From the NCBI GenBank assembly GCA_025200525.1, contig CM045758.1:166310261-166374260 (forward strand): a stretch of DNA of 64,000 bases, written 5' to 3'. The notes under the pieces were generated by a model. That model saw only the letters and a program-made list of their open reading frames with translations. It had not been told where the DNA came from and did not search any database. This DNA is from Camellia lanceoleosa. Lineage: Eukaryota; Streptophyta; Magnoliopsida; Ericales; Theaceae. Made by a program: the position numbers and the translations under genes. Below are positions 4,091-47,463 of the stretch, in pieces (within the stretch, counting starts at the first letter, position 1; each line of letters begins with the position of its first letter).

Positions 4091-4184
4091 CTATGGGTGC
4101 GATGTCCAACTTTCTCCTTCTCTACATCTCCTATGCCTCTCCTTAAGGTCATCCCTATTGTATTGGGTTAAAATACCCTCGATT

Positions 4185-5752
4185 CTAATTGTAGCAACAT
4201 CTCGGCCTGCACAACAATTTTGGTTTGAGTCGACTTCGACTACCATCAAATGATACTTTATCCTTCCGAAATTTATGGCCAGTAGGTAAAAATCTGCGAT
4301 GACCCAAGTATGATTGTTTCCTACTATGCTTCAACCAACACGATGTAGTTTCCTTATTGCAACAAGGACATGCATATTCGCCTTTAGTGCTCCATCCTGA
4401 CAAGTTTGCGTATGCAGGAAAATCACTAATTGTCCACAGTAAAGCTGCATGCATTTGAAACATTTGATTTGTTGATGCATCAAATGTTGACACACCCTCA
4501 TTCCATAGTTCTTTCAACTCCTCAATCAACGGTTGCATATAAACATCAATCTTGTCACCAGGTCCTTTCGGGCCGTCAATAAGCACGGATAAAATTAGAA
4601 ATGGTTGCTTCATGCACATCCATGGCGGCAAGTTGTATGGAATGAGCACAACAGGCCAAGTGCTATGAACTATGTTCATCGTCCTGAATGGGTTAAAACC
4701 ATCAGATGCTAAGCCAAGCCTTACACTTCGGCAATCATTACTAAAGTCAATATTCCGACGGTCAAAATCTTTCCATGCAAGGGAGTCAGCAGGATGCCTG
4801 AAGACACCATCATCAGTTCGTTCCTCTGCATGCCATCTCATTAACTTGGCCGTCTTGGATGACATAAACAACCTCTGCAACCTTGGCTTTAAAGGAAAAT
4901 ACCTCATCTGCTTTTGCGACTATTTGTTTGCCACCTGTGTTAGGACCATTTGAACCACCATCACCATTTGATTTCCATCTAGAACTGTTGCATATGACAC
5001 ATTTATCAAGATTGGCGTCCTCGTTTCGAAACAACATGCAACTGTTGGGACATGCATCCCACGTCTCATATGTGAAGCCCAAATCTGTTGTGACCTTTTG
5101 AGCTTTATAATATGAGTCCGGAAGTTTCACACCCAACGAAAACGCCTCATTCAATAACTCAAGCAACATGTCAACAGACTTGTCCGTCCACTGATTAAGC
5201 ACCTTCAAATGTAGAAGTCGAACAATGAATGACAAAGATGTGAACTTCTGACAACCCGGATACAATTCACTTTGTGCATCTTGAAGAAGTTTGAAATACT
5301 TTGCAGTCTCTGCATTTGGACCGAGCCGGGTTCGGATGCATGGGGATCGAGCCTCGTGGTTCATCACCCTCAGCACTTGTACCGGCATGTGGATTTCCCA
5401 TAGCCCCTTGTATCATTCCAATCATATCATCCCCAATGTCTGAATTAGCTAATGTTTCATTCTCTCTATTACCATGCAGAGATACGTAAGATTCCCCATG
5501 ATTAATCCAATGTTTGTATTTTTTAAAAAAACCATTCAAAATCAGATGCTCCCGTACACCCTCTCGTACAAAATAGTATCGATTCTCACACTTCCTACAC
5601 GGACAACTGATCATCGAACCTTCAACCCTATTGGTGTAGGCAAACACAAGGAATTCATCAATTCCATTAATGTATTCGCTCGACATCCTATTTGGCAAAT
5701 CAATCCAACTCTTATCCATCATCTGTACACATCCACAAAAATATCTCATCAA
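4185..5752 (-). pseudogene. CACTA transposase gene, 5' part (Transpos_assoc and tnp2 core), frame-broken
   Basis: Reading down from the ATG at 5752 or 5749, the first 100 residues form a transposase-associated domain: WIDLPNRMSSEYINGIDEFLVFA, then ISCPCRKCENRYY with the CPC-x2-C pattern, then LILNGFFKKYKHWINHGE. The protein then changes frame near 5340 (segment 5388-4813: AETAKYFKLLQDAQSELYPG, LPDSYYKAQKVTTDLG, CPNSCMLFRNE, CVICNSSRWK). It changes frame again near 4905 (segment 4907-4185: LRYFPLKPRLQRLFMSSKTA, MRWHAEERTDDGVFRHPADS, RLGLASDGFNPFRTMN, VVLIPYNLPPWMCMK, LWTISDFPAYANLSGWSTKG, CPCCNKET). These are the successive blocks of the tnp2 family. The two one-base frame changes, with no intron-like sequence between blocks, indicate a defective copy. 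Confidence 0.82.
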
Positions 5753-7215
5753 AGTAACTCTAAATATAATACCTTTAACTCAAACCTATTCGAAAAAATA
5801 CTCAAAACTCATCTATTTAAGTTTGACTAAGAAATTCTTCGCCTATTGCCAACTGTCATGTTTTTATTTGTTGCATGATGACATTTAAGCATAGCAAAGC
5901 TTTTGATACATACACAAATCAAGGTTGTTTCAATTATCTGTTATAATGGTGCCCATTTCCTATCATTAAGCATAGAGCATGAACGTGCATAAGGAGATAA
6001 TATAAGACTGACAATTCATAAGCATAGAGCATGAACGTGCATAAGGAATACATGGAGTATAAGATTGGAGTGGAGGAAAGTAGCCTAGGAGAGAAGTATG
6101 GGAAGGATGATGTGCTGATAAAGGATCCAATGTCCTTACAAAAGAAGGGTTGGTCCACAGAAATTATGGACATTTACTTAGAGCAGCAAAATGTGAAATT
6201 GGATTTGGTTAGGTTTAGGAAATATTTGAAGAAAGCATATGAAAAGGCAATTATCTCCATGGAAAAAAATGGTGAGCATGTGTCATGAAAGAGTCATATT
6301 ACTCTACCTGTGATTGATTTTGTGTTTTAAACTCATTGGTCTGTAAATACTAATGGTGATTGAGTATCATGTTAAAATTCAAATATATTCCAATAATCCA
6401 AGATATTTAAAGCATCATTATATAATTTTTACCCCCTATAATTTTCCACAAATCACCGTAAAGTTCAACCTTGAACAAAAAATGAAACCATCATGGCCTT
6501 AAAAACAAAATGCCTCTTGATTTAAGCAGAGACATAAGATCATAGATTATTTGACATAAGAACCACAAATCTAAAGCCCAAAGAATAAAAGGTTTCATTT
6601 TAATTTATATTTTTAACATATCTAATTTTTTTTCTTGTAAATGAATAAACAAAGTCATAAGTGCTATTTCATATACATTTATTATATATGAAAATTTAAT
6701 AACACTCTTTAAATTTGACATATATGAGGTATGAATTCTAACAATTTTTTTCTTAAACTCGGCATTGAATGAGCATACAAAATCTTTCATCTTCAATGGA
6801 AAAAAAGAAAAAGAAAAAGTGAACATAGATTGAAAAAAGAAAAAAAAAAAAAAAAAAAGTCAAGGTGCACCAACTACAATCCAAACATTTTACCCTCGTG
6901 TGTTATTTCAAATATATAGGAATACAGATAGATACAGAAAAATACATATACATTGGGACATGGATGTTTTTCAGAAGTAGGTTCTATCAATAAATCTTGT
7001 AAAATTCTAAAAACAAACACACTTCAAATTGATCTTATAATCAAACACAAAACAAATAATTGTTCAGTGTTATAACAGAAATGATAGGGTGCATACAGAA
7101 ATAAACATCATCCCAAACCCATCTCTATGCAAACCCCAAACCCATTCCACCAAATTTCCATTCCCCTCTTTCTCAATAACCCTCCTTCCACTAGCCACCA
7201 CAAGCACCACAGCTA

Positions 7216-7246
<31 letters not shown>

Positions 7247-7461
7247 CAGAGAGAGAGAGAGACAGAGAGAGCATACGGTGAGTGAGAAACTCGTCGCCGG
7301 TCACCGTCGCCGCACCACCGCACCACAGCTAGCCTGCACGTCGCTCGTCGAGAGAGATGCCAAGTTCGCCGTTCTTCGCACTCGAACAAATTAGGGATTT
7401 CAAGATTTAGGGAAACGTTGCAGCGCGAAGATGAAAAGAGAGGGGGAAATTTTTTTTAGTT
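5753..7461. other. 5' non-coding region of the CACTA element
   Basis: AT-rich leader and promoter side of the minus-strand transposase gene. It contains a roughly 31-bp near-perfect direct repeat (5966-5997 and 6019-6050). An 85-codon + strand frame lies at 6031-6288 (MNVHKEYMEYKIGVEESSLG…), which I cannot assign and which may be chance or a captured scrap. A poly-A run lies at 6839-6858, and a TA/GA microsatellite at 7218-7270. From 7270 to 7430 the sequence is GC-richer (CGTCGCCGG motifs) and could be a 5' UTR or promoter CpG patch. Confidence 0.5.
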
Positions 7462-7740
7462 TTTGCGACGGTAATTATACACCGTCGCAAATGATTTATT
7501 ATTTATATAAACGACGCCGTTCTGATAAGTTGTTTGCGACGGCCACTAACGCCGTCTCAAAAAAAAAACTTTTAGCGACGGTAAAAAAAACGCCGTCGCT
7601 AATACTTCCTTTTTTCCCACTATTCGCGTAGTTTTATTTGCGACGGTAAAATGCCGTCGCTAAAGGGATTATTTGCGACGGGTTAATCTACCGTCGCAAA
7701 AGCTCATTTTTTGCGACGGGAACGCGCACCGTCGCAAAAG
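7462..7740. repeat. CACTA subterminal repeats arranged as small hairpins
   Basis: TTTGCGACGG or AGCGACGG on one strand is followed 8-25 bp later by its complement CCGTCGCAAA or CCGTCGCTAA. Five clear pairs occur: near 7464-7492, 7573-7602, 7639-7663, 7672-7700 and 7709-7738, with a weaker one near 7529-7556. Such repeats are the established binding sites for the TnpA-like protein in CACTA elements. Here nearly every site is half of an inverted pair. Confidence 0.85.
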
Positions 7741-7750
7741 ATTCCGTGTT

Positions 7751-7772
7751 TATATGCCCTTTTCTTGTAGTG
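7751..7772 (-). repeat. CACTA terminal inverted repeat (right-hand copy)
   Basis: Read on the minus strand from 7772 it begins CACTACAAGAAAAGGGCAT. The CACTAC start, the AAGAAAA core and the adjacent subterminal hairpins define the transposon end. The flanking triplet CCA at 7773-7775 would be one copy of the 3-bp target duplication; the partner is outside the window. Confidence 0.85.
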
Positions 7773-13100: not shown

Positions 13101-13178
13101 ATTTATAATTGCAAAACGCAACAAACTTAATGCGCACACTTCTCCGAGAGAGAGAGAGAGAGAGAGAGAGGGGGAGAT
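13101..13178 (+). promoter_or_regulatory. Likely core promoter and GA-rich 5' UTR of the acyl-CoA ligase gene
   Basis: A TATA-like TTTATAAT at 13102-13109 lies about 75 bp before the start codon. It is followed by a (GA)n tract at 13147-13171, a common feature of plant 5' untranslated regions. A start of transcription near 13135 is inferred from spacing only. Confidence 0.5.
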
Positions 13179-14837
13179 ATGGATGAGTTGAAGCCAAGGC
13201 CAGCAAACTCTAGTCCTCTAACTCCTTTGGGCTTACTAGAAAGAGCTGCTACAGTGTATGGGGACTGTCCTTCTGTGGTGTACAACAACACCACTTACAC
13301 GTGGTCAGACACCCACCGTCGATGCCTCCGAGTCGCCTCCTCAATCGCGTTCATGGGCATCAAACAAGGCCACGTGGTGTCCGTGGTGGCCCCCAACATC
13401 CCCGCCATGTATGAGCTCCAATTCGCCGTCCCCATGTCCGGCGCCATCCTCAACTCCATCAACACCCGCCTCGACGCCCGCACCGTCTCCGTCCTCCTCC
13501 GTCACAGCGAATCAAAGCTCGTCTTCGTCGATTACCAATCCACCTCTGTCGTCCTCCAAGCCCTCTCTCTCTTCCCCCCAACCTCTCCCCGCCCACCTCT
13601 CATCCTCATCGCCGCCGACGACGGAGCTCCGCCGCAATCCGCCGTTGACTTCATCAACACGTATGAGAGCTTGGTGGAGAGAGGTGATCCTGAGTTCAAG
13701 TGGGTCCGGCCGAAGAGCGAGTGGGACCCGATGATCTTGAATTATACCTCCGGCACCACTTCATCTCCCAAGGGGGTGGTTCACAGCCACCGTGGGCTTT
13801 TCATCATCACCGTCGATTCACTGATGGACTGGTCAGTACCCAAACAGGCCGTCTACCTGTGGACCCTACCCATGTTCCACGCCAACGGCTGGAGCTTCAC
13901 CTGGGGGATGGCGGCTGTCGGCGGTATCAACGTCTGCGTCCGGAAATTCGACGCGGCGGTGATCTACGCCGCTATACGTAAACACGGCGTCACCCATTTA
14001 TGCGGCGCTCCCGTGGTTCTCAACATGCTATCCAACTCCCCCGACGGTAAGCCACTGGAGAAGCCGGTTCAGATTCTGACCGCCGGAGCACCGCCGCCAG
14101 CGGCGGTGCTGTTTCGGACCGAATCCATGGGTTTTTTAGTGAGTCACGGGTACGGGTTGACGGAAACGGCCGGGTTGGTGGTGTCGTGCGCCTGGAAACC
14201 CAAGTGGAATCGGCTACCGGCGACGGAGAGAGCGAGGCTGAAGGCGAGACAAGGGGTGAGGACTATTGGGATGACGGAGATCGATGTAATTGATCCGGAT
14301 ACCGGGTTGAGCGTGAAGCGAGACGGGTCGACACTGGGTGAAGTGGTTCTAAGAGGTGGGGCGGTCATGTTGGGTTACCTGAAAGACCCGGAAGGAACAT
14401 CGAAATGCATGACAGAGAACGGGTGGTTCTACACCGGAGATGTAGGGGTTATGCACCCAGATGGGTATTTGGAGATCAAAGACCGATCCAAAGACATCAT
14501 CATCACCGGCGGTGAGAACGTGAGCAGCGTGGAGGTAGAGTCGGTGCTATACTCTCACCCGGCGGTGAACGAGGCGGCGGTGGTGGCTCGGCCGGACGAG
14601 TTTTGGGGAGAAACCCCATGTGCATTTGTGAGTCTGAAGCCGGAAATCCCTAGAAAGAAGCCGACGGAGAAGGACATAATAGAGTATTGTAGAGCGAAGA
14701 TGCCGCACTATATGGTGCCAAAGACGGTGGTGTTCAAGGAAGAGCTTCCGAAGACATCGACTGGGAAGATTCAGAAGTTCGTGCTCAGAGACCTTGCCAA
14801 AGCCATGGGATCTATAAACAAAAGTCGTTTGTGAATG
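13179..14837 (+). CDS. AAE: Peroxisomal acyl-activating enzyme (AMP-binding acyl-CoA ligase)
   Basis: A 551-residue ANL-superfamily enzyme that adenylates a carboxylic acid with ATP and transfers it to CoA. Visible motifs are: the P-loop-like YTSGTTSSPKG at 189-199, YGLTET at 325-330, YTGD at 418-421, the hinge DRSKDIIITGGENV from 435, and the C-terminal catalytic lysine in KTSTGKIQK (Lys530). It ends SRL, a type 1 peroxisome signal. Full length and lack of introns fit the plant AAE1/AAE5/AAE11-like clade, which also includes petunia cinnamate-CoA ligase and hop short-chain CoA ligases. The N-terminus MDELKPRPANSSPLTPLGLL aligns with that clade, so I chose this ATG. Substrate cannot be read from sequence: short or branched fatty acids or cinnamate/benzoate are all possible. 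The first half is strongly C-ending in codon use and the second half G-rich. It is the only intact host gene here, flanked on both sides by transposon DNA. Confidence 0.95.
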
Positions 14838-19679: not shown

Positions 19680-20450
19680 ATTTTTTTTTAATTTTAATAT
19701 TTTAAACTCAAAACACAACTCCACACTTAAATCGTAATCAAACACATAACTCAAAATTAAATTCAAAAATTATTTTCAAACCTTGTAACCAAACACATAA
19801 CTCAAAATTTCACACTACTTTCAAAACTCTACACTTAAATCGTAATCAAATACATAATAAAAAAATTAAAATATTTAAAAATGTATTTAGAATATAAAAT
19901 AAAAAATATTTAAAATAAAAACTATATATTTAAAATAAAAAAATAATTTTTTTAAATTTTTAATATTTAAAATATATATAAAAAAAATACAACACATAAA
20001 TGTATGAAACATAGTGCAAATTAAAATAAATAAATAAATTATTAAATATAAAATATTTACCCTAAAAAATAAATCTAAAAAATTTAAAATACTTACCCTA
20101 AAAGAATAAATCTAAAAAATTTCAAAATACAACTCAAAATTCTTTTCGAAACTTATAATCAAACAAATTTTCTTTTTTCAAAACTCATAACTCAAAATAC
20201 GACTTTACACTCAAATTATGATTCTAAAAATAATTTTAAAAAATACAATAAAATAAAATTCTTTTAAAATAGAGTTTTGAAAAAAAAAAATTGATTTTGA
20301 GTTATGAAAAGACTTTTGAATTGAATTTTGAATTATGTATTTAGTTATGAATTTTAAAAAAAAAAAATTGAAAATTTCTAATTGAAATTGTGATTTTAAA
20401 AAAGAACCAAACATGTTTCTTTGTTATTGTTTAGCTAATTAATTGTTTAT
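19680..20450. repeat. AT-rich MITE-like fragments (CATAACTCAAAAT family)
   Basis: Repeated tracts such as CAAACACATAACTCAAAAT, ACTTAAATCGTAATCAAA and GATTTTGAGTTATG in both orientations resemble the interior of the elements at 8640 and 31856. Several overlapping, decayed insertions are likely. No gene seen. Confidence 0.4.
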
Positions 20451-20654
20451 TCCACCTCATTGTAAACTGAAATTTTGATTGGAGTAATACTATAAAATAA
20501 ATAAATAAGAATAAATTTTAAGATAAATTTTAATAGCTATGGATAACTTACCTGTTGTTGTATTTTTAAATAAAAGGTTGCAATTGCCAAAAAAAAAAAA
20601 AAAAACATTGTTCCAAACGACTGGCCGGCATTTGGTATTGGTATATATGGATTG

Positions 20655-21089
20655 TGTAACACCCTGTCCCACATCGGAAGTTTGTATGGGTGATCTTGGG
20701 TATATAAAGCACCACTATCTTGCTACTAAATAATTTGGACTTAAGCTTTTGGGTATTGGTGGTCGACCCACAAGTTATTTGGGCCAGCAAGTAGTGGGGC
20801 GTTACAAATGATATCAGAGCCGACCCATGCACACAACCATGTGGGCCACTTATTCTGGGCTGGCTACGAGCTTGTCGTGGTATTCTGATTGATTATAGAC
20901 CCTCGCGAGGACGCGAGGATTTATAAGTGGGGGAGTTTGTAACACCCTGTCCCACATCGGAAGTTTGCATGGGTGATCTTGGGTATATAAAGCACCACTA
21001 TCTTGCTACTAAATAACTTGGACTTAAGCTTTTGGGTATTGGTGGTCGACCCACAAGTTATTTGGGCCAGCAAGTAGTGGGGCGTTACA
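20655..21089 (+). mobile_element. Complete TRIM (terminal-repeat retrotransposon in miniature), 435 bp
   Basis: Two 152-bp LTRs (20655-20806 and 20938-21089) start TGTAACACCCTGTCCCACAT and end GGGGCGTTACA. They differ by only two T/C transitions. The primer site TGATATCAGAGCC (20809-20821) is one base off the usual initiator tRNA-Met site. A purine tract AAGTGGGGGAG precedes the second LTR. Each LTR has a TATATAAAG box. The 5-bp target duplication GATTG flanks the whole (20650-20654 and 21090-21094). The 131-bp internal domain is non-coding, so mobility would need another element's proteins. Confidence 0.95.
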
Positions 21090-21289
21090 GATTGGTTGAG
21101 GACACTTGAGGGCATTATGAACATTTTAGTGTGTGACATTAATGACATCGGTAGGTTCTCACTACAACAAAAAGTAGCAACAACCACGTTGGTTAGACAA
21201 CGTTTTTTGAAAAACGCTGTGGTACACTTAAAGTAAAATTAAAAAACACGCGTTATCTTCTCTTATAAACATGCGTTCACTTTTTTAAC

Positions 21290-21800
21290 GGTGCTCCGTC
21301 TCCTCAGTATCCATTTCTCTTCAATCAATTTGTTTTCTATCTCCGTTTCTCTGTCCTAGATCTAGGGTTTTTTTGTGTCTGTCTCTTATCGTTTTCTCTC
21401 ACTGCTCTAGATCTAGGGTTTTCTGTGTCTCTCTGCTCATTCTCCTTGAGAGATTCACCAGGTTCGATTTCGATTACTTGTTCAGATCTAATTCTAAATC
21501 CATCGATTCTTGAATCGATTTGGTTGAAATTTCTTGACGGTATTTTGTTTTTCTTGATTCTGATTCTAATAATTTTGCAGAGGAAGATGGACCTGTTGAG
21601 TGAAGAAGGATCAAAGTCATCGGGATCGAGATAGGGTCCAGAACCGAGATTGGTCGAGTCGGAGCAAGAGGAGAGGAGATAAGTTGATTTACGGGAGTAA
21701 TAGAGAAGATGGTGGTGAGGACAGTTCAGAGGAGAAGAGATAGCAAATATCACCAGACTAAGTCAGGTATCCTCCTTTATGTCAACAGTGAGCAAATCAA
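21290..21800 (+). pseudogene. Possible captured 5' UTR and first exons of an unidentified gene
   Basis: Pyrimidine-rich leader-like sequence with two copies of CTAGATCTAGGGTTTT (21355 and 21406), typical of plant 5' UTRs. Next come an intron-like stretch ending TTTTGCAG at 21580 and a short frame RKMDLLSEEGSKSSGSR that stops. I cannot assign it to a gene. It may supply the transcript start for the downstream fragments. Confidence 0.35.
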
Positions 21801-22080
21801 CAGTGTCTATCGTTACAGATGTGATGATGCTCCTCAAGATCGCATTTTCTCCATTTAGGCCTTACATGTCCATTGTTTGATATATATGCAATTGGACCAT
21901 TTTCTGGGAAGTAGTTGTGCATATATGCAATTGGAAACCCAATTTTGTCGTGTTTATGCGTTTTGTTATCAATGTTGTCTTATTATCCCATCTCCCCACT
22001 CTCACTCTGCATTGCAATTGTATTGTTGTAATTTTCTGCTTCTCATGTAATACTTGGCTTACTTGCTAGTATACGAGTAG

Positions 22081-22170
22081 TTCTAACATAAAAGTTTTCT
22101 TAGATCAAGGAAAAATTATTTGGATTTCTAACATAAAAGTTTGCTTAGATCAAGAAAAAATTATTTGGAT
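22081..22170. repeat. 45-bp tandem duplication
   Basis: TTCTAACATAAAAGTTT(T/G)CTTAGATCAAG… occurs twice head to tail, at 22081 and 22126, with two or three differences. It lies between captured segments of the Pack-CACTA element. Confidence 0.75.
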
Positions 22171-22589
22171 TTCCATAAGCTTTAATCTGCCTTTACAGTT
22201 CATTATTTGATGCAATTACTAGCATGAGTAAAAATGTCTCTTTGTGTTTCAGATGCATGAATGCTTTTCAAAGCATCTAAAGTTGGTCCACAATAGTCTC
22301 TTTTGGTACTTCAACTTCAACTTTATATAAGGCTTCTTTTGTATTGCTAAGTGGCTGGTTATCGCCTAGCTCAAATTCTTTGATTTAAACTCGAGCTCAG
22401 ACTTGGGCAAACAAGTTTGGGCAGAGGTTAGGCTCGGGCTTGATAGACCCCTTTAAACTTTCATTTTGTAACTAAAGAAAGACAATTAGGCAAGCTTGTT
22501 TAAAAGGCATCCCTGTATTCCCTCCCAACCTAGTATTCTATGTAACTGTTGATTTGTTTTACTAATGACCCTCCATTTCAATGTCTCAG

Positions 22590-22953
22590 CTAAAACAGAG
22601 TTCATCACCACTGCAAGCAATGAGGTGCACCATCATCCAAGCTCGGAAGCTATCCAGTGCATTATCTGCCGCAAGCTTTGCTTGTGATCACATACTGTGA
22701 TTGGGTTCTTGGAACTCCAAAGGTTGAATTTTATGTTGCAATAATCTGTTTCTTGTTCTTCTTTCTATACTACATTAGTTGCATCTACTTATTTACTTCT
22801 TTTGCTTCTTTTTTTTGTTATTTTTTTCTACAACAATTTAGGGAACATGGGTTTCAATGGGAGTGTATTCTGATGGATCTTATGGAATCCAACCTGGCCT
22901 TATTTACTCTTTCCCCATTACTTGTGAGAAAGGAGATTGGTCGATTGTGCAGG
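22590..22953 (+). pseudogene. MDH: Captured fragment of cytosolic NAD malate dehydrogenase (two exons)
   Basis: Exon 1 (22590-22722) reads EFITT, then after a short disturbance IIQARKLSSALSAASFACDH, then after a one-base shift DWVLGTPK. Intron about 120 bp, ending in AG. Exon 2 (22843-22953) reads [15 protein letters not shown], then [20 protein letters not shown], fully in frame and followed by a GTAAG donor. These blocks are characteristic of the C-terminal half of plant cytosolic malate dehydrogenase. The remaining exons, including the active-site region, are absent. Retained intron borders show that genomic DNA was captured. Frame damage in exon 1 argues against function. Confidence 0.85.
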
Positions 22954-23768
22954 GTAAGTTTTTTGATGTTTTATAAAATGCAATGTGTCAAGTAGCATTA
23001 CATTCATCATGGTAGAGTGTGGGCTCCATTCATGATAAATGCATTGCTGCCGTGCCGACATTGCATTTTGTAATAGAAAAAATTATGAGTTTTTTAATTT
23101 GCAAATTCATCCTCAAAGTTTGATGGTTCTGGAGCAGGTGTTGTCAACACAACACTCTAATAATAAATTAAAGCAAATTTTGACCCTCATGCCTTAATCC
23201 TTAAACTGGCATGGTGGTACACAGATTACTCAGTGTGTGTGAAACACTAACTTTTCATTTTAAATTTTAAATGTAAACTGTAACAGGCATGTCTGATCAA
23301 CAAAATATCTGGTGTATCGGCTCAACCAACAAGCCAATTGACGTGAGCTAGCTATTTTTAGACTTCTTTCCCTTCTCGCAAATTGCTTTATTTATTACCG
23401 GTGCAAAACAGAAGTTGCTATGCTTATAGATGGATTATATCAAATTTTCCATTGGCGTAAACTGTTTTTTCAGGATTTTTGAAGCAACTCAAAATTAGAT
23501 GATTCAAAAATTTAAAGTCAAGATAATATTTATGTACCGCTTAAAATTAGTATATGTTATTTCTCTTTAAATTGTAAGCTTGAACACAGATACACTGTTA
23601 TTGAAATTGCTTTATTGTTTATTACTTTATGTCTGTTGGCTTGGATGACAAACCGGATGAAAATATGATGTTACAAATATATAGTGCACCATTTGACTTT
23701 GGTTTGGTTTTTATCATGTATTTGTTGTCTTTCTATTCCACTTTCTGCTTATGACCATTTTTTAATAG

Positions 23769-24900
23769 GTTTGCCCGATGACATGGATGCTAAGATATCG
23801 CTTATTCAATACTTTCGTGAGAGATACCACATCAATCTAAAGTTTGCGTGCTTGCTCGCACTTCAAGTCGGGCAAAGGACTTAAAGCCTGCTTACCTACC
23901 AATGGAGGTTTCTCATTTTTAAAACGTAATTTTTGTTTTAAGTTATACAAAGAGGATCTTAGCTTGCATTGTTTTGTCTTCCACTACTGACTTTGTAAGA
24001 TTGTAGAAGGACAAAGGTATTCAAAAGTTGAATGAAAAGCAAGTGATCGCTCTGCTAAGGGCGACTGTCAACGCCTTTTGAGAGAGTACAAAGTATTAGC
24101 GGTATGAATATGTTAAGATCATCGTTAGTTTTGATTATTAGAGTTCTCAATCATTTCATAAATCTCATAGTATACATCTTTTAGTTTATGTCCAAAAATA
24201 TAGGAAATTGTTTTCTCCTACTTTGTTCACCATTATTTTACTAGATGATGCGCTCCATTGCGTATGGTTGCGTAACAATTACAACAATGATAAGTTTGTG
24301 AATGAATTTGGGCTTCGAGTAAAGACTGAACTTACATCTATTGATGCTCGTGTCCTTCCAAATCCAATGGTAGTTTTTATCTATTAATTTCATTATGAAT
24401 AAATATTTCACTTTCATATGTTTTATTTATTTATTTTATTTTATTTACTTTAACCAGTTCTTCAATTGTTGCAGCTTAAGTACCAGGGTACACAAGAGGT
24501 CCCACGAGTGGGGTGTTGGAACATGATTGATAAGGTTTAGTATTTGGTTGTTGATTTGATATTTATCTCTGCTGCAAGCTATTATGAATCTTAAAGTCAA
24601 TTGATAGTCAAATCTTCTGGCATTATTCTCTCTTAAAGAATTTATGAACTAGAAGATGCTAATGCCTTTTGTACTTTAGGATGACCCTTCGTTAGTTTGG
24701 TTGTGCAGAAAATGGTTAATGGTGGCAAGGTGGAGTTTTGGACATGTGTGAGCTTCTCACGGCTAAGGCAAAATGAGGTTTTCAAATTTTGTGAGAATTT
24801 GGTCGACATGGCATTCGAACTTATGTTGCACAACACTGATCTTGGAAATCGTTGGAAGCCATTAAGTAGATCTCAAAATATGTTACTCAGAATGTAGTGG
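23769..24900 (+). pseudogene. AGO: Captured ARGONAUTE fragment (AGO5-like; PAZ end, linker, start of MID)
   Basis: Exon-like blocks, each bordered by AG…GT signals: 23769-23907 (DDMDAKISLIQYFRERYHIN, LQVGQRT, then after a one-base change KPAYLPME); 24007-about 24091 (GQRYSK-LNEKQVIALLRAT); 24244-24369 (NNYNNDKFVNEFGLRVKTEL, IDARVLPNPM); 24475-24534 (LKYQGTQEVPRVGCWNMIDK); 24709-about 24890 (KMVNGGKVEFWTCVSFSRLR, FCENLVDMAFELM). The LPMEV–EGQRYSKRLNE–ARVLP–WNMIDKKMVNGG series is diagnostic of plant AGO1/5/10-clade proteins. WNMIDKKMVNG and WTCVSFS favour AGO5. The N domain and the PIWI slicer domain are missing. A stop replaces the expected reading near 24082 and there are frame shifts, so it is a pseudogene fragment. 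Confidence 0.88.
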
Positions 24901-25198
24901 GCAAAGGGCATGGAATGAATTCAAATTCCTCTATTCGACCTTTGATCCCCTATTTACTCTATTGACCCTTGTTATACTAGTGTTGCTTCATTTATTTGTT
25001 TCCCTTTTTGGTAGGGTAAAATATATGAAATCAAAGTGAAATTCATAATTTATTTGGTAGGGTAAAATATACCATTCGTGCTTATGCAGTTATCAATCTG
25101 CCAGTAGACAGCAATTATACTAATTAGATGTCCCTCCATTAAATACGACTTCATCTCTCAAATAAAGTGGTTGCTCAAAGTGGTTATCTTTTTTACAG

Positions 25199-28100
25199 AG
25201 CCTCATATCTGCTAAACATCGTATTGAAATGTGTCATCTGGCTTGCAGAAGTTTAGAGTTTATAATGGTGGATCCGTGGGAGGTATCTTTTTCTCTCTGT
25301 GAATTTGATGTATACCTCCTAAAAATTATGCAGTTTTGCAATTACGTTTTTCTTTTGTTCATTATGTTTTTCATGCATCTAAACCTCTATTTCCATGTAT
25401 TTATTGGCTCTACAAATTGATTTGGAAGTATTGAATCCTTGTTCTAGGCCAGTCAAGATATCTTCCAACGCACGTTGACTGTTTTGTGTAGAATCAAAAG
25501 TTCTTTGTGCGACAGTGGAAGGATCTCTGGAGGTGAGGTCCACTAGAAATTAGCTTTCTTCGTCTTTTTCTTCTTTGGCATTTGAGAAATTGGTCTTTAT
25601 GGTCAGTTATTTGATTGTCTCTAAGGAATGCTTTATCATCTAGCAAACTGAAGTTTGAATTTGGAAAAAGGGACTTTGTTGCTTAACAATACCTTATGTG
25701 TTGTGAATATATATGACAATGAGTGTTGTAATTTATGGATTTCAAATTTCCCGATATGTGAGTGTAATTTATTTTGTTGAAAAGTCATAAAGGCAACTAA
25801 ATAATCACTTCCCAAATGCCTAAATGATTAGTTAAAGAAGTATTTTTGCTAACCAAAAAGTGAAGGCAGCACTACGATTAATTTAATTCAACTCTACATT
25901 TTATATGCGTTAAAGATTGAAAATTATACATTTTATATGTATTTATGTCTTTCAAGAAATCTTATTTTTGTAATTTAAAGATATTTATATTTTCTATAAC
26001 TACACATTTATTTATACTTATTTTTTACAGTATTAAAATATTTTACAATATATAATACGATACGATATGTCATTAAAAAAAAAATTGATATATTTCATCC
26101 ATAGTTGAGTGTTAGATGGCCATCTTTGTCAATTGAATCATTATTTTTTATATTTTATTTTATTTTATTTTTTTGTTTGTTTGTTTGTTTTGTGATTGGA
26201 TGATGTTTGAGTGTTTGATGAGTCAATTTGAATACTTTCTATGAAATTACAAATTTATTTTTTGTCTGCCTCCCAAAGTGCCAACACTGTCAATGGATTC
26301 TTGTGGAATTCCATGAACAATGGACACACTTTCCTTAAAAGATTCCTTTCGATTTTGACAACACAAGCAAGCAACCCGTTTCTCGCGGTTGTTACCATTC
26401 TCCTACACTCTGTTTTTCAGTCACCATTCCGTATTTGATAACAATGACTAATTATTAAATTGTGATCTTTAGATGAAGTGTTGGACAATAATTGAAAGAA
26501 AAAAGTGTTAAAGAAGATTTGGATCTATATGGGATAGTCATTACCAAACGTCCCCATTGGTAGTCAAGTCTGTAAGTCATTATTGTCGTGGAAACCCCTT
26601 TCGACCACACAATCAAACGCATTTCTCACGGTTGTTACCATTATTGTTGTGGAAAAAAATTCCTCTTTCTCATCATTCAACATTTGATTAAAGATCGCAA
26701 AATATAGTAATGATTAACTGTTAAATTGTGACATTTAAATAAAGTATTATATAATAATTGAAAAATAAAATGTTTGAACTACAGAGCATTAATCCCAATG
26801 ACCTGGGTTTTACAACATGGATCTGTCTAGTGCAGTGGGCTCTATGTAAAGGTGTTTCCTGGGTTAAGTCCAAAGCCATCATGTTGTCTCTTGTACATCA
26901 ACCCATATTTATTTATTTTTATTATTTTGGCAGTCCTCTTGTCCGCATGACACTTTGGACTCAGATTAGGCAATTCAAGTCCCACCTCTTTATTCGTATA
27001 TTAGTATCTTTAAGTTGTTTATTTTTATTTTTAATTTTATGTTTTTTGGGTCTAATTGATGGCAATTCTATAACTTGCTCTTTTCCTGCTCATAGAATCC
27101 CTAAAGGTCATGCTTGTTTGTGGTTCTGATCTGCTAGAATCTTTTAGCATTCCCGGAGCTTGGATTCCTGAGTAGGTAAGTTCTTGTTGCATAAAATTTG
27201 ATGTTAAGATAGCTACTACTTTGCTACCATTTAGATGGCATGCCCTTTTACTGTGCTACTACACTTTCCAGTGAGGGACAGTAATGCCATAAAACTAAAC
27301 CCCATGCTATGCCAATGTGAGCAATTAGATATTGAAGTAATGCTCTACAATGTATCTATAAACCACCACGATCATATTACATATGAGGTTTGGATAATTT
27401 GCTTTCGAGAAAGTAATCAATGGAAATATGAACACACAAGTAATAAACATATAACCCACAGAGGAGAGCACACTATTTCCTTCATATGAAAAGATCAGGT
27501 GATAGTGGAATGTTTGAACCTTTTGATATTTTGATATTGAGTAGCTTCCTCCTATGTGTTTGGAGCATGTTCAACAAAAGTTTGTCCGAATTCTGGATGT
27601 GTGCTTCATATTTTGATATTGAGTAGCTGCATATTATAATTGATCCAAATGCGCATATTTTGTATTTTCAGATGAGGACTATATGTAGAGACTTTGGTGT
27701 GGTTTGCATTCATAGAGAACGTCAGGATATTGAGAAAGTTATCTCTAATGATGATATTTTAAATGAGTACAAGGTAATTCAAGTTCCTTGGGTTGTTATT
27801 CTTCTTCTTGATAGATAAGTTGTTTCTCTGTTTCTATTATTCTTTTTACTGGACCAATGCACTGATCAAATCAAGGCTTTGAAACTAGGATGAGATATTA
27901 ATTCACCATGTAATTAAAGAAGGTTGGTAGTCGTCTAATTTTCAGGTAATGAATTTCGGAAAAAAATTCAATTTATCGAAATTCGGACTGTTGCACCAAA
28001 TGGGAAGGAACATTCCCTAGTGATTTTCCATTATCAGAAGATTCAGTACATAAAAATTTCATAATCATTGGCTTACATATTGCCTTTACCGTTTATATTA

Positions 28101-28375
28101 CTGCAGACTAACATCAAAGTTGTCGATGAACTTGTACCAAACTAGATCAGTTCAACACGAGTAAGGTAAACAGATTTGGTGTTGTGGGGTTTCTGGCAAG
28201 GGCTCACTTCGTTTTATTTATTCATTTTTTATTTTATTTTATCATGTATACCAGGGACTGCATTTCGAGAGGGTTGTTAGTAAAATATCTAACAACTGAT
28301 GACGTGATTAATTATATCAAACAGCACCGTCTGTACTTGACATTCCACAACAAGTTTTTCAGGTCTTCAAGTTGA
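25199..28375 (+). pseudogene. NMNAT: Captured nicotinate/nicotinamide mononucleotide adenylyltransferase (six exons)
   Basis: Six blocks with AG/GT borders follow the order of plant NMNAT: 25199-25282 (LISAKHRIEMCHLACRS, FIMVDPWE); 25448-25532 (ASQDIFQRTLTVLCRIKSSL); 27096-27175 (SLKVMLVCGSDLLESF, GAWIPE then TAG where Gln is expected); 27672-27773 (ICRDFGVVCIHRERQDIEKV, NDDILNEYK); 28107-28165 (NIKVVDELVPN, stop, ISSTRV); 28255-28375 (DCISRGLLVKYLTTDDVINY, IKQHRLY). NMNAT makes NAD from NMN and ATP. The exons with the N-terminal nucleotide-binding (GSFNPPT-type) motif are absent. Two in-frame stops (the first CAG to TAG) show decay. The intron at 25533-27095 is long and may itself hold insertions. 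Confidence 0.88.
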
Positions 28376-28392
28376 GAACATAAAAATCATTT

Positions 28393-28586
28393 GTAGTGTT
28401 TGATTGATCTTTTTTAGCAAGCATGTCTCTTTAGTTTATTTATTTTTTACTCCCAATCATTTGCTTACTTATGTGTATATTTTGTTTTTGTAGTGTTTGA
28501 TTGATCTTTTTTAGCAAGCATGTCTCTTTAGTTTATTTATTTTTTACTCCCAATCATTTGCTTACTTATGTGTATATTTTGTTTTT
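28393..28586. repeat. Perfect 97-bp tandem duplication
   Basis: The unit beginning GTAGTGTTTGATTGATC at 28393 is repeated base for base from 28490 to 28586. It sits just after the NMNAT-like fragment. Perfect identity implies a recent event. Confidence 0.95.
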
Positions 28587-28600
28587 GTGGATGATCACAG

Positions 28601-28662
28601 ATGCGGACATTCTTTTTGTTACAACTACGGATCTCCTCTAATAGCCCACTACTGTAGTAAAT
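28601..28662 (+). pseudogene. Possible captured zinc-finger exon (IBR/RBR-like)
   Basis: Bordered by CACAG and GTAAG, the block reads RCGHSFCYNYGSPLIAHYCS then KC, giving a C-x-H-x2-C … H-x-C-x2-C spacing reminiscent of the last part of an IBR (RBR ubiquitin ligase) zinc finger, with one Cys changed to Tyr. It is short, so the assignment is tentative. Confidence 0.4.
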
Positions 28663-28669
28663 GTAAGCA

Positions 28670-30360
28670 TTAAGTCCTCATAGATGCCAGCCTTTATGTA
28701 TTCATGAAACTTACTTTTCAATCACAGGACATAGTGATGGAAGCGACCATCTTAACAAATGTGTAAGATGCTCATCTTTAATGCAATTTTTTAAAAACTT
28801 TTAACGATTTGTTATGAATTCTTATTAAAGATTAGTGCTAGACACAAATTTCGATCTCTGTTGTAATCAACAAAACAAATGCAATTTGATGAATCTTTGC
28901 TAACTCGATCACAAAATTTAAATTTATCAGAACAAAAAAAAAAAAAAAAGACATATGTTTTAGATTTGAATGATGCAACCGGTTAGTTATGTCCTAAAAT
29001 TGTCACCAACCTCGTAATCACATTGTTTTGATCGTCAACTTCTTCAATCTTCTCGACCCAACATGCACGATCAAATGCATTTATTGTATTTATCGACATG
29101 TTTTGTTTTAGTCACTTTTGTGTTCGCCATTTGCCTAATCTTCTGTTATTTACTTACGCAAAATACTAAAACATCTTTGCACATTTCAAAGAATCAAGAA
29201 TCAAGAATCTTAGAGCAACACAATCACAGTCCTTACCATTTTCAGATATGGCAGTGTTGTGGCCATAGGACTCAATGTTCACACAAGGCTGGCATTTTGT
29301 CTGGAGATGTTATCTGAAAATTGATGACACAAGTAAAGAAACCATGGACATATATGATGCAGCAGAGTGCTTGCAGTGAGTTCTCTACTATGCTCATCAC
29401 TTAGTTCTCCATGTTACATTTTTGTTCACCAAATATTATCTACAATCAATCAATGAGATCCTTTGCTGCATTGTGGTAGAATAGTGTACATTTGCCAGTT
29501 TTAAACTATTATTGAATTCTTTCTCTTAGGTTATCACGCATTGAGCCCTTATTTTAGAACTATATTGTCTGATTACTTATGCATACAATGAGATTGTGTA
29601 TTTTTGCAGTTATAAATTTATTTATGTTAGATGTGTAGTGAATGCTTTGTTGTGCTTGACGTTGAGGGAAATGGGTTAATGATGGATAATGCATATATAT
29701 ATATATATATATATTAATTGCTAGGTTGCAAATGGGTTAGTGATAGATTTTGCAAATTTACTTACTAGGTTGCATGACGATTCATTTTTGTGCAATAGCA
29801 CTTTTAAGATCATCATTTTTTAGTCTTCAATTGATAATGGCATGCTCAATGGCTGATATTTTTGGGTTGATAGTCAATGGTTGCTATAAGAATCTAACTA
29901 TCAAGTCTATTTTTTATCTGCCTCAAACTTCTTTCTAATCAGATTGAGTTTGTCATTTTTTCTTTTTGATTACAGTAAAAAATCTTTTATGATCTTGAGA
30001 ATGACAGAATGGAAGGATGATTCAGGTATATATCATCATTTTGCTGAAGAGGATTGGATGACTAGAAGATGAAGTTATTTTCAAAATTTGGAGGGCACAC
30101 TCCATATTTTTTTTTCATTAAAATGTAAAAGTATTAGTAATTTTTATTTTTATTTTTTTGTATTGATTTAACATATTGTGTTTTAAGGGTTATTTATTTA
30201 TTTATTTATAAGTTGTGGAAAATTGAAAAATGGATATTGACTCACATTGTGGTATATATATATTTTTTTGAGGATATGTGGTATATATTTTGAAAATGGT
30301 GATGGATAATAGGTTTGCTTTGAACAAAAGTAAAAGCATAATTAATTATGAATTTTTTTT
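28670..30360. other. 3' part of the Pack-CACTA element, unassigned
   Basis: No family recognised. One exon-like stretch near 29245-29380 reads KIDDTSKETMDIYDAAECLQ or, in another frame, IGLNVHTRLAFCLEMLSEN; I cannot place either. It also contains an AT microsatellite at 29693-29714 and an A-rich run near 30355-30375 before the subterminal repeats. Confidence 0.4.
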
Positions 30361-30649
30361 TAAAAAAAAAAGAGAAAAGGTGGCGTTTTCGTAAAAACGT
30401 CGCAAACTATCGTCATGATTACGTCATAGTTAACCCTCGCTAATCTTATTAATCGTTAACAGAGGTTAAGAATCAGTGGCGCGTTAAAAAAACATCGTCA
30501 AAAACCTTTAGTGGCGTTTTTAAGATGCCACAAAGATATGACGGCGGTCACATCTGCGATTTAATTTTGTAAACGCTACTTTATTTTTTTTGCGGCGTTT
30601 TTATCACTGCGTTTTACAAACGCCGGTAAATCTCAATTTTCCTGTAGTG

Positions 30650-31855
30650 TCTGTGAATCAAGTAAACAAAAGTAAAAAAATAGAAGAATCTGGAGAATGT
30701 CAAGTAAAGTGGAGAAGGTTACTGTAATTATTGAAATCACAGAAAAAGTTCCTGTATTTGTCAGAAACCTCAGGGGAGGTGAGAATAATTTACTGTAATA
30801 ATTTTGTAGGTTGTAATAAGCATGTGTTAGCTTAGGAGTGTTACAACTGGATTGGATACTAAACAAAGCCTAAAAATCAATTTTGGGTGGACTTTTATAC
30901 CATTATTGTCCTAAATTTAGTTATTAAAAAATTATTACTCGATGGTCAATCCATCAGTTACTTGTCTACTTATTTATTTATTTATATCAAATTGTTATAT
31001 ATAAAATCAAAATAAGAAACATGTATGTAAATTCTATTTGCATATTGATTAATATTTTAAAATTTTAATTATGAAATATATATATTTATTCTTAAAACAT
31101 AACCAATGTCTATTTTATTAATATTAAGGTATATTTAAATATTAGTCCGAGCATGTAATGTGCTTTTTGGCCTAGGACTTGCTTAAGAGAAGTGAATTGT
31201 TAATTATTGGTTTAAACTTTATATTTAAAATTTTAAGTTTTAATTTCATATTTTTTTAATAGGATTAGGGCATGTATATTCTTGAATTTTATAACTTTTT
31301 ATAAATTATTATTAAAATTTCATTTCATTTTTTTCTTCTAAATTTTAAATTAGTTGTAGGGTTAAGTATGGTTACATTTTTGTTTTAAATTACAATTAAA
31401 AAAAAAATTAAACTTAGATATGGCTAGATAAGCCAATACTTTTATGCCACACGTGTTTCATGCCACATTTATATTTCGTTTTAAAAAAAATACAAATATA
31501 TTCAAATTTTATAAGGATAAAATTAAATTTAAAATATTATTTTAATTTATTTTTTTAATTTCAAATTAGATATGACTTAGATCTTGATAAAAAATATGAC
31601 TAAAATTCATTTTTTGACTTTCTATAGAAGTAATTTTGAAATTTAAAATTATAGAAATAGAATACAGATATAGATAGTAATGACAACAGATACCATAAAT
31701 AAATAGTTCAATGTTAATAAATTTAAAAGATTTTGCATATTAATAAAGGATTTAATTAAAATATTAAACTAGAAGGACCAATGATAATGTGTCATGTGTA
31801 TTTTTAATAATTTTTTAATTCAATAATTTGAGAAAATTACATTGAGACTTTAAGG
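30650..31855. other. AT-rich intergenic DNA
   Basis: 30660-30830 is the inverted relative of 19285-19520. The rest is AT-rich without recognisable coding or repeat ends. Confidence 0.5.
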
Positions 31856-40365: not shown

Positions 40366-40370
40366 CATTT

Positions 40371-41916
40371 TATAGCGATCTCGATTTTGCCCAAGCCTTC
40401 ATTGTGTTCCGGACTTGGGTTTCGTGATTGAATATTATATCCATGTCTTGTTTTTCTCCTTTGACCCTTGATGTTTGAGTTTTAGAACTTGTTGGGTGAG
40501 TTTGGAACAGGTTGGTTGCAGTTGGGTTACATTGTTGTTGCCTAGGTTTTGGCCTCTTTGCTCGAGCGAGCTTTTTGTAATTTGCTTCTTCACTCAAGCG
40601 AAGTTTCTTGCACTCAAGCGAGAATTAGGATTTCTCAGGTTTCCTTCTAGACACAACATTTTTGGGGAAGATGAAGTTCTTCGCTTGAGCGAGGCTTCTT
40701 GCGCTCGAGCAAGCCTTGTGTTATTTGTTCCTTCGCTCGAGTGAGGTTTCTTGCGCTCGAGCGAGCGTGTGCGTCTGTAGCAAACCTGAAGCTTTGCATT
40801 GTGCACTCGAGCGAGGTCACTTGTTGTGTCTGGTCGCTCGAGCGATAACTTCTTCGCTCGAGCGAAGACCACGTATATCAGTTCACAGCAAAGGATTTTG
40901 TATCACTTTTCACTCAAAACCCTAATCCGGCACTTCTCTCTCTAAAACTCTCTCTCTCTTTCTACAAATACTCATTGATCTAAGCATTTCTCTACCCTAC
41001 TTTCTTTGTTAAAAAGGTAGAGCACCTTGAGGGCTCCGTGTTGATCCAAATAGATCGTGGTTTCGACTTATTTGAAGTGTCTCCATCTCCTCCTTTGGTC
41101 TCCTAACGTTGAGATAGGGATATTCTACACTTTGTTATGAATTTTAACCTAGTTATTTCTTATTATGAATATATGGTGAGATTTGGGATGTTTGGAGGAA
41201 ATCTAGGATTAAGATTCAAATTTATAAAGAGGGGTTTTCATGTGTTGTGGCATATTTGATCATGGGGCTAGGTTATGAGGTTGTTTGCTATTAAAATGGT
41301 GGAATCTAGCTATTTGGTAGAATTTGAGAAAAGTTGGGGGATTGCCCTAATTTGAGTTAAATAAATTATTTTGTATAAATAATGAAATTGATATGGGAAA
41401 TATGAAATTAGGAGGGTGCATGAATGAATGGTGTAGTTGGATTTATTAAATCACTCACCTATGGAAATCTGATAAATTATCTGTTTAAAAGATTGGATAT
41501 TTGTTTGGAAAATATCTGTTTTGGGCTATCGGTGGAGGATAGCTATGATTGTTGTAGAAACTGCATATAGATTAGGTGAATTGAAACCTATCATTTAAGT
41601 TACCTCATTGAATGTGATGGTATGATTGAGATATTGAATATGTGCCGTAGATAGTCATTGTATATGACGATGCTGTTAAATACATTGTATGTGTATCATT
41701 GTTTGAGAGGAGATAGGGGATGAACTCAATTTAAAATTAAGTTGGCCGGAGTGTCCAGGGTGAAAGTCCCGAAACCTTATATACATATGGATGCCGGTTC
41801 CCTCGGACGAAAATTCCGTAAAATGGTAAAATTGAAGTGTTTGAATAATAGTTGTATTGAATTGTGAATCATTGAGTTGTAGTCTCATTTGGGTTGTTTA
41901 GATAACATGAACTTGT
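40371..41916 (+). repeat. Element B 5' LTR, first part (U3/R)
   Basis: Matches 60035-61710 closely. It contains the CTCGAG palindrome array (40558-40865), a CT-rich leader (40935-40965) and GGATAGCTATGATTGTTGTAG-type U5 sequence. It is interrupted at the target CTTGT by a 4122-bp insertion. It continues at 46044-46573. Confidence 0.9.
40558..40865. repeat. CTCGAG-palindrome array in the 5' LTR of element B
   Basis: About ten copies of (T)CGCTCGAGCGA(G) or one-base variants (CTCAAGCG, CTTGAGCG, CTCGAGTG), spaced 15-40 bp, mostly in the context CTTC[TT]GCGCTCGAGCGAG. The full unit TCGCTCGAGCGA is a perfect 12-bp palindrome. Confidence 0.85.
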
Positions 41917-44900: not shown

Positions 44901-46038
44901 GTTGTAATAAGGGTGCATGTGTGTACGCATGTCTTCCAACCCCATTTCTTTCTCCTTTTACTTACCGCTTTCGATGGTTAGTTTTAGGGCACGTTTTGAT
45001 TAGCATACCTTATGTTTTGCATGTTTGCATCATTCATTTGTCTTGCATGCACCAGGCTCGGCGCACTATTCAAACTGCATTGTATTTCAATACCTATTTG
45101 AATACATGTTATCAAGTGTTGCATTCATATGCCATAGTAGATAGCCGAGCCAATTAGTTGCACTATTGCATGTGTTGCATTAGGCATCTTTTATAGTTAG
45201 GATCATGCATGATTTCTAACTAGTTTTCTGTTTTGGCTTGGAGTACGTTGTAAGTGTTTATGCTTTAGCATCCTTGCATGTGTGTAAGTGACTGCCATGA
45301 TAGCATGCTTGCCATGAGGCTATTTGCTTAATTGATAAACTGCATGAATGCCTGTGGATGAAGGCTTCATTACTTGAATTGGAACAATTCATCAAAATGT
45401 GAGTTTTAAGCCCACTTGGAGTGGCAAATCATCATGTTTTAAGCCCACCTTGTTTGGTGGCAAATCCGCATTTCTAAGCTCACTTGAGGGTGGCAAATTC
45501 AAACCATTTTCGAAAACAAACATTGAATTGTTTTGTTCCAATTTAGGCGATCTAGTCTATACTTGTATGATGTGCTCATCATGTAGTAAGTTAGCTAAAT
45601 AACCGGAACAAGAACACATGATATTAAAAAAACAACATATCATATTTAGCAAAGGCCGATCTTTGATTAGGCGAGCGGGGGTGCTCATTTCAGGACCTTC
45701 CCCTCTCGTACCCAAGTTCCCGAGCCGAGGCAACTTTGGTGATGACGGATACATGGCTTTTGGCACGAGTCAAGGTTTCCTAAATTTTTCAAAAACAAAA
45801 TATTTAGGTGACGACTCTGTAATCTGGCAAAGCAGTCCATGTTTGGCACTTTTTGATTAAAATCGATTTTCCAAAACGATTTGCGGGATTTGAACTCTTT
45901 GGTGATTTATCGGTCTTACATTGCACTTTGTGAGATTAGATTTAGAACCATGACAGGAGTCTGAACTGTAGTAACTAGAACCCAATTCGCATCCTCTCCG
46001 AAAAGGGGACGCGCGGAGAGAGTTTCGGGCGGTCTATA
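41917..46038 (+). mobile_element. Solo LTR of a long-LTR retrotransposon, 4122 bp, TSD CTTGT
   Basis: Begins TGTAGACAACCC and ends GGTCTATA (inverted terminal TGTAGAC…GTCTATA, one change). It is flanked by CTTGT at 41912-41916 and 46039-46043, and it splits the 5' LTR of element B, which resumes exactly. No internal LTR duplication, primer site or protein domain is present. TATATAAG at 42352-42359 followed by a CT run fits a transcription start about 460 bp in. Size, TGTAGACA start and the GGTGACGACTCTG-type tail suggest the Tat/Ogre group, which is known for LTRs of several kb; the class call is inferred. Confidence 0.75.
43186..43960. repeat. Degenerate ~304-bp tandem repeats inside the solo LTR
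   Basis: Blocks starting at 43186 (CTGTTTTGGGTGGTC), 43491 (CTGTTTTGAATGGTC) and 43794 (CTTTGTCCAGAGCTGGTG) share an ordered set of motifs: a TAG(C/T)ATG…GGC(T)TTGA(C)TAGC core, then CTCTTAACATG-like and GCATG-rich blocks, then GTGTATAT or equivalent. The third copy is partial. Confidence 0.55.
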
Positions 46039-46043
46039 CTTGT

Positions 46044-46573
46044 CTCATGAATTGACTTAGAATTAATTGAATTATAATGAAATAAATAATTGGAAATGGA
46101 TCGAGATATGGGTATCAGTATTGAAAGATCATGGAAAGAAAGTAAGTTGGTTATGAATGTGGAGCATTTATCTAGCGCTTATATCTTAGTTGAACTTCAT
46201 ATATTGTGTTAGTATATCTCTACTGGACTTTGGCTCACCCTACTTGGAAAACCATTTTTAGGTACCGGTGACGTGCCACCTCCAAGGAGGTAGCTTGGGA
46301 GGATTTAGGAGCTGAAAGCTCTATTTTTTTGTTTGTTGTTTAGATGCTTAAATTATTGTTTAAGCCTAAGGCTTTATATGTAATGAGCTTGTAACTCTCT
46401 TTTGTCGTAACCAAGTAATGTCTTGGAAAGATATAAGCCCGAAGGGCATTTGTTTATGTTAAACCCTCTTGTATTATCAACTTCTTGTAATGAAAGGATC
46501 ACTTACACTCTGATTTTTGTAATTCTTGTTTATGCTTGGGTTATATCTATGGTATTATTTTGGAGGTGTTACA
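46044..46573 (+). repeat. Element B 5' LTR, second part
   Basis: Continues the LTR after the solo-LTR insertion (CTCATGAATTGACTTAGAATT, matching 61725 on) and ends GGAGGTGTTACA. The TGGTATCAGAGT primer site follows after three bases. Confidence 0.9.
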
Positions 46574-46976: not shown

Positions 46977-47463
46977 GATGCCTAGATGAGGAAGTGATAA
47001 TTTCCCTCCTTCCACACAGGAAGAGTTACAGAAAGAGTTTGTGGAGTTATGCCAAGGTACTATACCTTTGGTACAATTTGAACCATGGTTCACTAACCTG
47101 TTAAGATTTGCCCCGGAGTTAGTAGAGACTGAGGAACTTCGTTGTTCAGAGTTTGAGAGTAGGTTGTGTGACGACATCCAAGAAAGGATTGTTGGGTCTT
47201 GGCATAGGAGTTATAGTGTGCTTGTTAAGGCGGCAACTCATGTGGACGCAGCGGTACTAGCCATGGGACAGAGTAGGGAAGAGGCCATTTCTGCAACTCC
47301 TGTAACTCGGGGTGTTGGTAGGCCTTTTAAGAGGTAGAGGGGTTTTACCCCACAACAGTTTTAGAGAGCTCAATCTAGCTCTACCTTTTTAGTGCCGAGT
47401 TTGGGTTCGAGGAAGAGTAAGCAGAGGGATTTCACTTGTTTCAAATGTGGATAGCTGGGCCAC
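46977..47463 (+). pseudogene. Element B gag, 5' part, ending inside a zinc knuckle
   Basis: Reads EELQKEFVELCQGTIPLVQF, then FEPWFTNLLRFAPELVETEE, then GVGRPFKR and a stop, then a zinc knuckle beginning CFKCG at about 47437. The middle blocks align with the C-terminal half of chromovirus gag (EF-x2-L-x-QG…RFAPELV). The normal N-terminal half (the PPTFSG…W segment) is absent, so gag was already truncated. The knuckle is interrupted after its histidine by element A at 47464. Confidence 0.8.

Follow-up and report, generated by a model that had tools for sequence, protein, structure and literature searches.

A probable Pack-CACTA transposon of Camellia lanceoleosa carrying fragments of malate dehydrogenase, ARGONAUTE and NMN adenylyltransferase genes

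Introduction

How do pieces of three unrelated genes come to lie in series, in one orientation, between what look like the ends of a single DNA transposon? This question is raised by a locus of Camellia lanceoleosa (Theaceae) within a 64,000-nucleotide stretch of contig CM045758.1 (assembly GCA_025200525.1, positions 166,310,261 to 166,374,260 of the forward strand), hereafter called the window. An original prediction, made from the letters alone, described there a complete CACTA-type unit that has no visible transposase and carries exon-intron fragments of cytosolic malate dehydrogenase (MDH), an AGO5-like ARGONAUTE (AGO) and NMN adenylyltransferase (NMNAT). Our analyses suggest, with a probability of about 0.85, that the unit is a non-autonomous CACTA transposon (Pack-CACTA) of C. 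lanceoleosa that holds genomic pieces from three or more host genes. Positions are those of the window, and features of the element are given on the plus strand unless stated otherwise.

Results

The unit occupies 21160-30649 (9,490 bp), beginning with CACTAC at 21160 and closing with GTAGTG that ends at 30649, and it is flanked by a target-site duplication, TCT, at 21157-21159 and 30650-30652 (no strand assigned). The left terminal inverted repeat (TIR), CACTACAACAAAAA (21160-21173), matches the right one (30636-30649) at 11 of 14 bases. Subterminal repeats, a mark of Pack-CACTA elements, are present at both ends: the left zone (21160-21309) is built of ACGY/RCGT words and the right zone (30350-30649) of AAAACGC/GCGTTTT words, the density of ACGY/RCGT being 40 per kb in the left 150 bp, 30 per kb in the right 300 bp and 2.1 per kb in the interior. 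A terminal hexamer and a 3-bp repeat alone are weak evidence for an element; the window holds 52 CACTAC/GTAGTG pairs lying 1-20 kb apart, two of which (2/52) have identical flanking 3-mers, and the pair at 21160-30649 is the only one of the 52 with an 11/14 TIR match in addition to the shared 3-mer. In first-order Markov sequences, a target-site duplication with a TIR match of at least 11/14 arose in 6 of 300, and in none of the 300 once the subterminal word counts were added. The pairing of the ends, the TIR, the duplication, the Markov control and the dense subterminal words, taken together, therefore indicate that both ends very probably belong to one element, in line with the complete CACTA-type unit that had been claimed.

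The absence of a visible transposase was likewise borne out. Pfam scans of 20 of the larger open reading frames (ORFs) on both strands, of the joined exon pieces and of further ORFs, which together took in a part of the 229 ORFs of at least 25 amino acids and not every short one, detected no transposase domain. A tblastn search of the element with six ORFs from a neighbouring tnp2 CACTA element gave a best E-value of 0.072, with none significant. This neighbour lies in part within the window (1-7772, minus strand), encodes Transposase_21 (E 2e-95), DUF4218, DUF4216 and Transpos_assoc domains and ends CACTACAAGAAAAGGG; its opposite end could not be located within the window. It shares the CACTACAAG end with the Pack element, but its subterminal words are TTTGCGACGG rather than AAAACGC, and hence it is probably not the partner of the Pack element.

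Other classes of gene-carrying element fitted less well. A Helitron 3' end (a GC-rich hairpin followed by CTRRT) was found nowhere in 20160-31649 on either strand, the same scan returning five over the whole window, and a nested Helitron was dropped. A Pack-MULE would call for long TIRs and a 9-bp target-site duplication; here CACTA ends and a 3-bp repeat occur instead, and the flanking 9 bp differ by eye. Capture of a processed retrocopy, in which introns would be lost, was rejected on account of the GT-AG introns that separate the exons of a public gene model of the locus (P0028, see below) and of intron-like sequence before the first NMNAT exon.

Within the element, pieces of MDH, AGO and NMNAT follow one another in one orientation, as had been proposed, and all three were matched to their proteins; three fragments would share an orientation by chance in 1 of 4 cases (by arithmetic). 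They are preceded by a 5' region (21310-22560) that gave no Pfam match at cut-off in the ORFs tested and contains a CT-rich stretch with CTAGGGTTT motifs, which we take to be 5'-untranslated-region-like.

MDH is represented by exon fragments A (22598-22722, the predicted start having been 22590) and B (22842-22953, whose last codon overruns the exon end). When joined by hand, these pieces hit 5nue, a cytosolic malate dehydrogenase (E 6.5e-34), and exceed the Pfam cut-off for Ldh_1_C. In frameshift-aware, exon-by-exon alignment, the method used for all three genes, 72 of 79 residues are identical to the MDH part of P0156, a chimeric C. lanceoleosa protein model discussed below, with two frameshifts, both in fragment A; in fragment B all 38 residues (38/38) agree.

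The AGO piece, predicted at 23769-24900, is present, yet it starts earlier than proposed, with a fragment missing from the original list (KISGVSAQPTSQLT, 23302-23343). Five further exon fragments follow: the end of PAZ (23769-23907, frameshifted, aligned part from 23777); LCKIVEGQRYS... (23991-24100, two frameshifts in the alignment); ArgoL2 (24245-24369, open, AGO-like part from 24271); a short piece at 24475-24534; and the start of MID (24709-24810), where the alignment to the full-length Camellia fascicularis protein P0155 stops at 24810. The best PDB match of the hand-joined pieces is AGO10 (7sva, E 5.2e-24), and Pfam places ArgoL2 and ArgoMid above and PAZ below cut-off. Coverage runs only from the end of PAZ through linker 2 to the start of MID, and is frameshifted; the PIWI domain and the open frame of a functional AGO5/MEL1 are both lacking. 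In a wider protein collection, 64 AGO matches were found among 625 candidates, P0155 being the best, with 169 of 183 residues identical and three frameshifts. Among the matches listed that bear an AGO number or the name MEL1, 26 of 27 are AGO5 or MEL1 and one is argonaute 7. In a tree of 20 hand-picked rows (the window, P0156 and 18 of the other 63 AGO matches), the window AGO falls in one group with P0156 and two further Camellia proteins, P0155 and P0165, the support of 100/98 applying to the group and not to the order within it. The AGO5-like label therefore appears right, since the names of the matches and the placement with Camellia proteins agree.

NMNAT is represented by six exon fragments, at 25199-25282, 25448-25532, 27096-27171, 27672-27773 (of which the P0028 model takes 27677-27773), 28107-28166 (with a premature TAG at 28143-28145) and, for the last exon, 28253-28339. 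Hand-joined, they match plant NMN adenylyltransferase 9rpk (E 2.3e-68), reach the Pfam cut-off for CTP_transf_like, and share 155 of 167 residues with C. sinensis P0001, with one stop and no frameshift. The 11 codons before the first exon (SGCSKWLSFLQ, 25166-25198) recur at the corresponding position in the C. sinensis model P0002 and are absent from P0001, P0003 and P0011. Since this stretch, taken as an intron end, is common to P0002, the captured DNA seems to carry parental intron sequence, a reading that rests on one gene model; together with the GT-AG introns of the P0028 model, it upholds the proposal of genomic capture. A diverged repeat pair (67 and 47 bp, 79-81%) at 26353-26774, in the large NMNAT intron, is perhaps a later insertion.

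Camellia relatives were thus found for AGO (P0155) and NMNAT (P0001), and for MDH the relatives matched are Arabidopsis MDH1 and the chimera P0156, as capture from host genes would entail. The identity figures do not date the captures: the AGO and NMNAT references (P0155 and P0001) belong to other species of Camellia, and the MDH reference, P0156, is a chimeric model. The captured pieces are in decay and would encode none of the parental proteins intact.

The element has left a trace in public databases. P0028, a 268-residue C. lanceoleosa protein named NMN adenylyltransferase in nr/UniRef, reads MDH-AGO-NMNAT, and ten exons of the window, spanning 22565-28145, yield it residue for residue, stopping at the premature TAG. 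Exon ends were set by hand, and the fit, restricted to splice sites near them with AG acceptors and either GT or GC donors, had one solution, in which all donors are GT. Hence, P0028 is almost certainly this element, or an identical copy of it, annotated as a gene. The model takes a donor within the damaged MDH exon A and skips three AGO pieces out of six. Among the best 120 of 6193 matches, no other protein spanned the whole MDH-AGO-NMNAT chimera. As a side observation, the NMNAT entry P0145 of Nepenthes gracilis also has PF03936 and PF19086, presumably terpene synthase domains, and may be another chimeric model or a fusion of neighbours.

A second C. lanceoleosa entry, P0156, named 'Polygalacturonase', consists of polygalacturonase followed by the C-terminal part of MDH and then an AGO part, with no NMNAT. 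It lies on a contig of 177.7 Mb, against 226.3 Mb for P0028, and the two contigs may not belong to one assembly. Its AGO part agrees with the AGO of C. fascicularis in 211 of the 215 residues aligned. P0156 also contains an MDH end and more N-terminal AGO stretches, to which tblastn found no significant counterpart in the element. Several features of P0156 were considered and not counted: a formin FH2 domain in its tail (E 0.022 and 0.011, below cut-off, no relevant PDB match), a suspected MYB-type piece there, and the M that it shares with the window in DDMDAK, which as proof of one capture fails, being present in 3 of the 64 AGO proteins, P0156 included.

Downstream of NMNAT lie two identical 97-bp tandem copies (28390-28583) and possible zinc-finger exons (28601-28760; CGHSFCYNYG...HYCSKC / GHSDGSDHLNKC), which stay unconfirmed below Pfam cut-offs. 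The zinc-finger exon suspected near 28601 was not supported, zf-A20 giving E 0.05 and 0.026; as a RING-between-RING fragment, to which it bears some likeness, it was rejected as well (IBR_1 E 3.3, below cut-off, no relevant PDB match). Nor was a DUF155 match close to 29240 accepted (E 0.018 and 0.074).

Elsewhere in the window, a GC-rich, 567-codon stop-to-stop open frame (13131-14831, plus strand) encodes an AMP-binding enzyme (E 9.4e-73) and is probably an ordinary host gene. Direct repeats of 161 bp, 97% alike, lie just upstream of the Pack element (20649-20809 and 20932-21092); TGTAACACCC...GGGCGTTACA suggests a small element of the long-terminal-repeat (LTR) type. Direct repeats at 40370-41907 with 46038-46337, and at 60034-62009, 91-95% alike and about 19.7 kb apart, probably represent the LTRs of one large retrotransposon; the left copy appears to be broken by about 4 kb. 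Between them, direct and inverted repeat copies (83-92%) surround Ty3-type gag, protease and chromodomain ORFs (47463-56103), suggesting a second or nested retroelement.

Discussion

We propose that the locus holds a Pack-CACTA transposon that either lost its transposase or never possessed one, and whose movement, past or present, would have depended on a related CACTA transposase acting on its ends. Since P0156 joins MDH and AGO in the same order without NMNAT, stepwise assembly is favoured: an MDH-AGO module, now at two loci, would probably have formed first, and the NMNAT piece may have joined it in this element or been lost at the P0156 locus. On the simplest reading, the module was older and longer, and underwent internal deletion and addition of NMNAT here, or loss of NMNAT in P0156. 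The likely route would be one already described in the literature: insertions lying close to each other move together as a single unit, and internal deletion follows. The original prediction had offered repeated captures or template switching; P0156 argues for the former, and no specific evidence points to the latter.

An element of this kind is already known from soybean. According to its description (PMC1947982), the CACTA element Tgm-Express1 contains introns and exons from five unrelated genes, malate dehydrogenase among them, that are spliced into chimeric transcripts, and in its exon-intron pieces of several unrelated genes, including MDH, it resembles the Camellia element. As described there, it differs in its size (5.7 kb), its site within an F3H intron, its transcription from the F3H promoter and its set of fragments (an unknown protein, CDC2, FPK, MDH and cysteine synthase), which holds no ARGONAUTE or NMNAT; the likeness is drawn from this description. 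The Pack-CACTA and Pack-TYPE elements of Arabidopsis, rice and maize, as outlined in PMC8903248, likewise combine CACTA ends with captured coding DNA, in other plants and from other donor genes. Host-gene fragments also occur inside CACTA elements of Chenopodium, where they lie, according to PMC8978399, in the 5' part of elements with transposase-related domains and outside the coding sequence; in the Camellia element no transposase was found in the ORFs scanned. An ARGONAUTE fragment in a CACTA element was not met in the literature searched, although one may already have been published.

Several observations weigh against our interpretation. The thresholds of the Markov control were chosen after the element had been seen, and the random sequences averaged 15.5 end pairs, whereas the window has 52; the control therefore understates chance about threefold. 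The perfect match of the ends spans 6 bp only, within a TIR that agrees at 11 of 14 bases. NMNAT carries frameshifts in 0 of 167 codons against 5 of 262 in MDH and AGO (p = 0.08), and the comparison of all disabling changes gives p = 0.25; neither difference is significant, and the idea of NMNAT as a clearly younger capture was dropped. Moreover, because P0156 is known as a protein model only, its MDH-AGO module could predate the CACTA element, could have been moved by something else or could be partly an artefact of prediction or assembly. The original prediction held that finding its three fragments side by side in the same order elsewhere, without CACTA ends, would speak against it; two of the three, MDH and AGO, do adjoin in that order in P0156, at the protein level, and NMNAT is absent there.

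A rival reading is that the MDH-AGO(-NMNAT) run was built by other means, such as filler-DNA repair or a Helitron, the CACTA ends merely bordering it or having jumped to either side. Several gene fragments in one direction are also found in Helitrons, and in P0156 the MDH-AGO pair recurs at another locus, which may lack CACTA ends; but neither strand of 20160-31649 offers a Helitron-like 3' end, and matching CACTA ends and a target-site duplication delimit the unit. We regard this origin as unlikely. Less likely still is that P0028 represents a genuine chimeric gene that is expressed and has acquired a new function, for which one could invoke its ten exons with GT-AG introns, the stretch upstream of them that we take to be 5'-untranslated-region-like, and the precedent of Tgm-Express1, whose exons can be spliced into transcripts (PMC1947982). 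A donor inside a damaged MDH exon, the omission of three of six AGO pieces, the premature stop and the lack of a second whole-chimera protein among the best 120 of 6193 matches all argue otherwise.

The AGO fragment invites a further thought, that the element might yield small RNAs which reduce expression of its AGO5-like parent and thereby make transposition easier. A review (PMC13317346) portrays the sequences captured by maize Helitrons, Pack-MULEs and Sireviruses as reservoirs of small interfering RNAs (siRNAs) against donor genes, in a section that does not name CACTA elements. The AGO part of the element is close to a Camellia AGO (169 of 183 residues), but it lacks PIWI, and no inverted AGO copy was found, the element containing five inverted repeats of at least 25 nt, which measure 25-34 nt and show 70-80% complementarity; a long AGO hairpin as a source of siRNAs was therefore rejected. 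Moreover, AGO5/MEL1 proteins act mainly in germ cells and in antiviral defence and are not known to form the main branch of siRNA-directed transposon silencing. The roles of this clade and the lack of a hairpin weaken the idea, and we consider it highly improbable, as is its more specific form, in which the chimeric unit would be transcribed and its AGO5-like exons would give rise to small RNAs dampening the parental AGO in the germ line. If it were true, a transposon would be using a captured piece of a silencing protein to disarm that very protein, and the MDH-AGO module would be found at two loci as the part retained for dampening AGO.

Returning to the Pack-CACTA interpretation, the main visible effect of the element, as far as the gene models tell, is that gene predictors fuse its surviving exons into chimeric 'genes'. 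Two public protein entries, named as an NAD enzyme and a pectinase, are chimeric, P0028 apparently being this transposon and P0156 probably transposon-derived, and they may mislead studies of domain architecture and gene families. A two-gene module that occurs in two gene models of one species, with the third fragment in one of them only, would make this locus a traceable case of stepwise gene capture.

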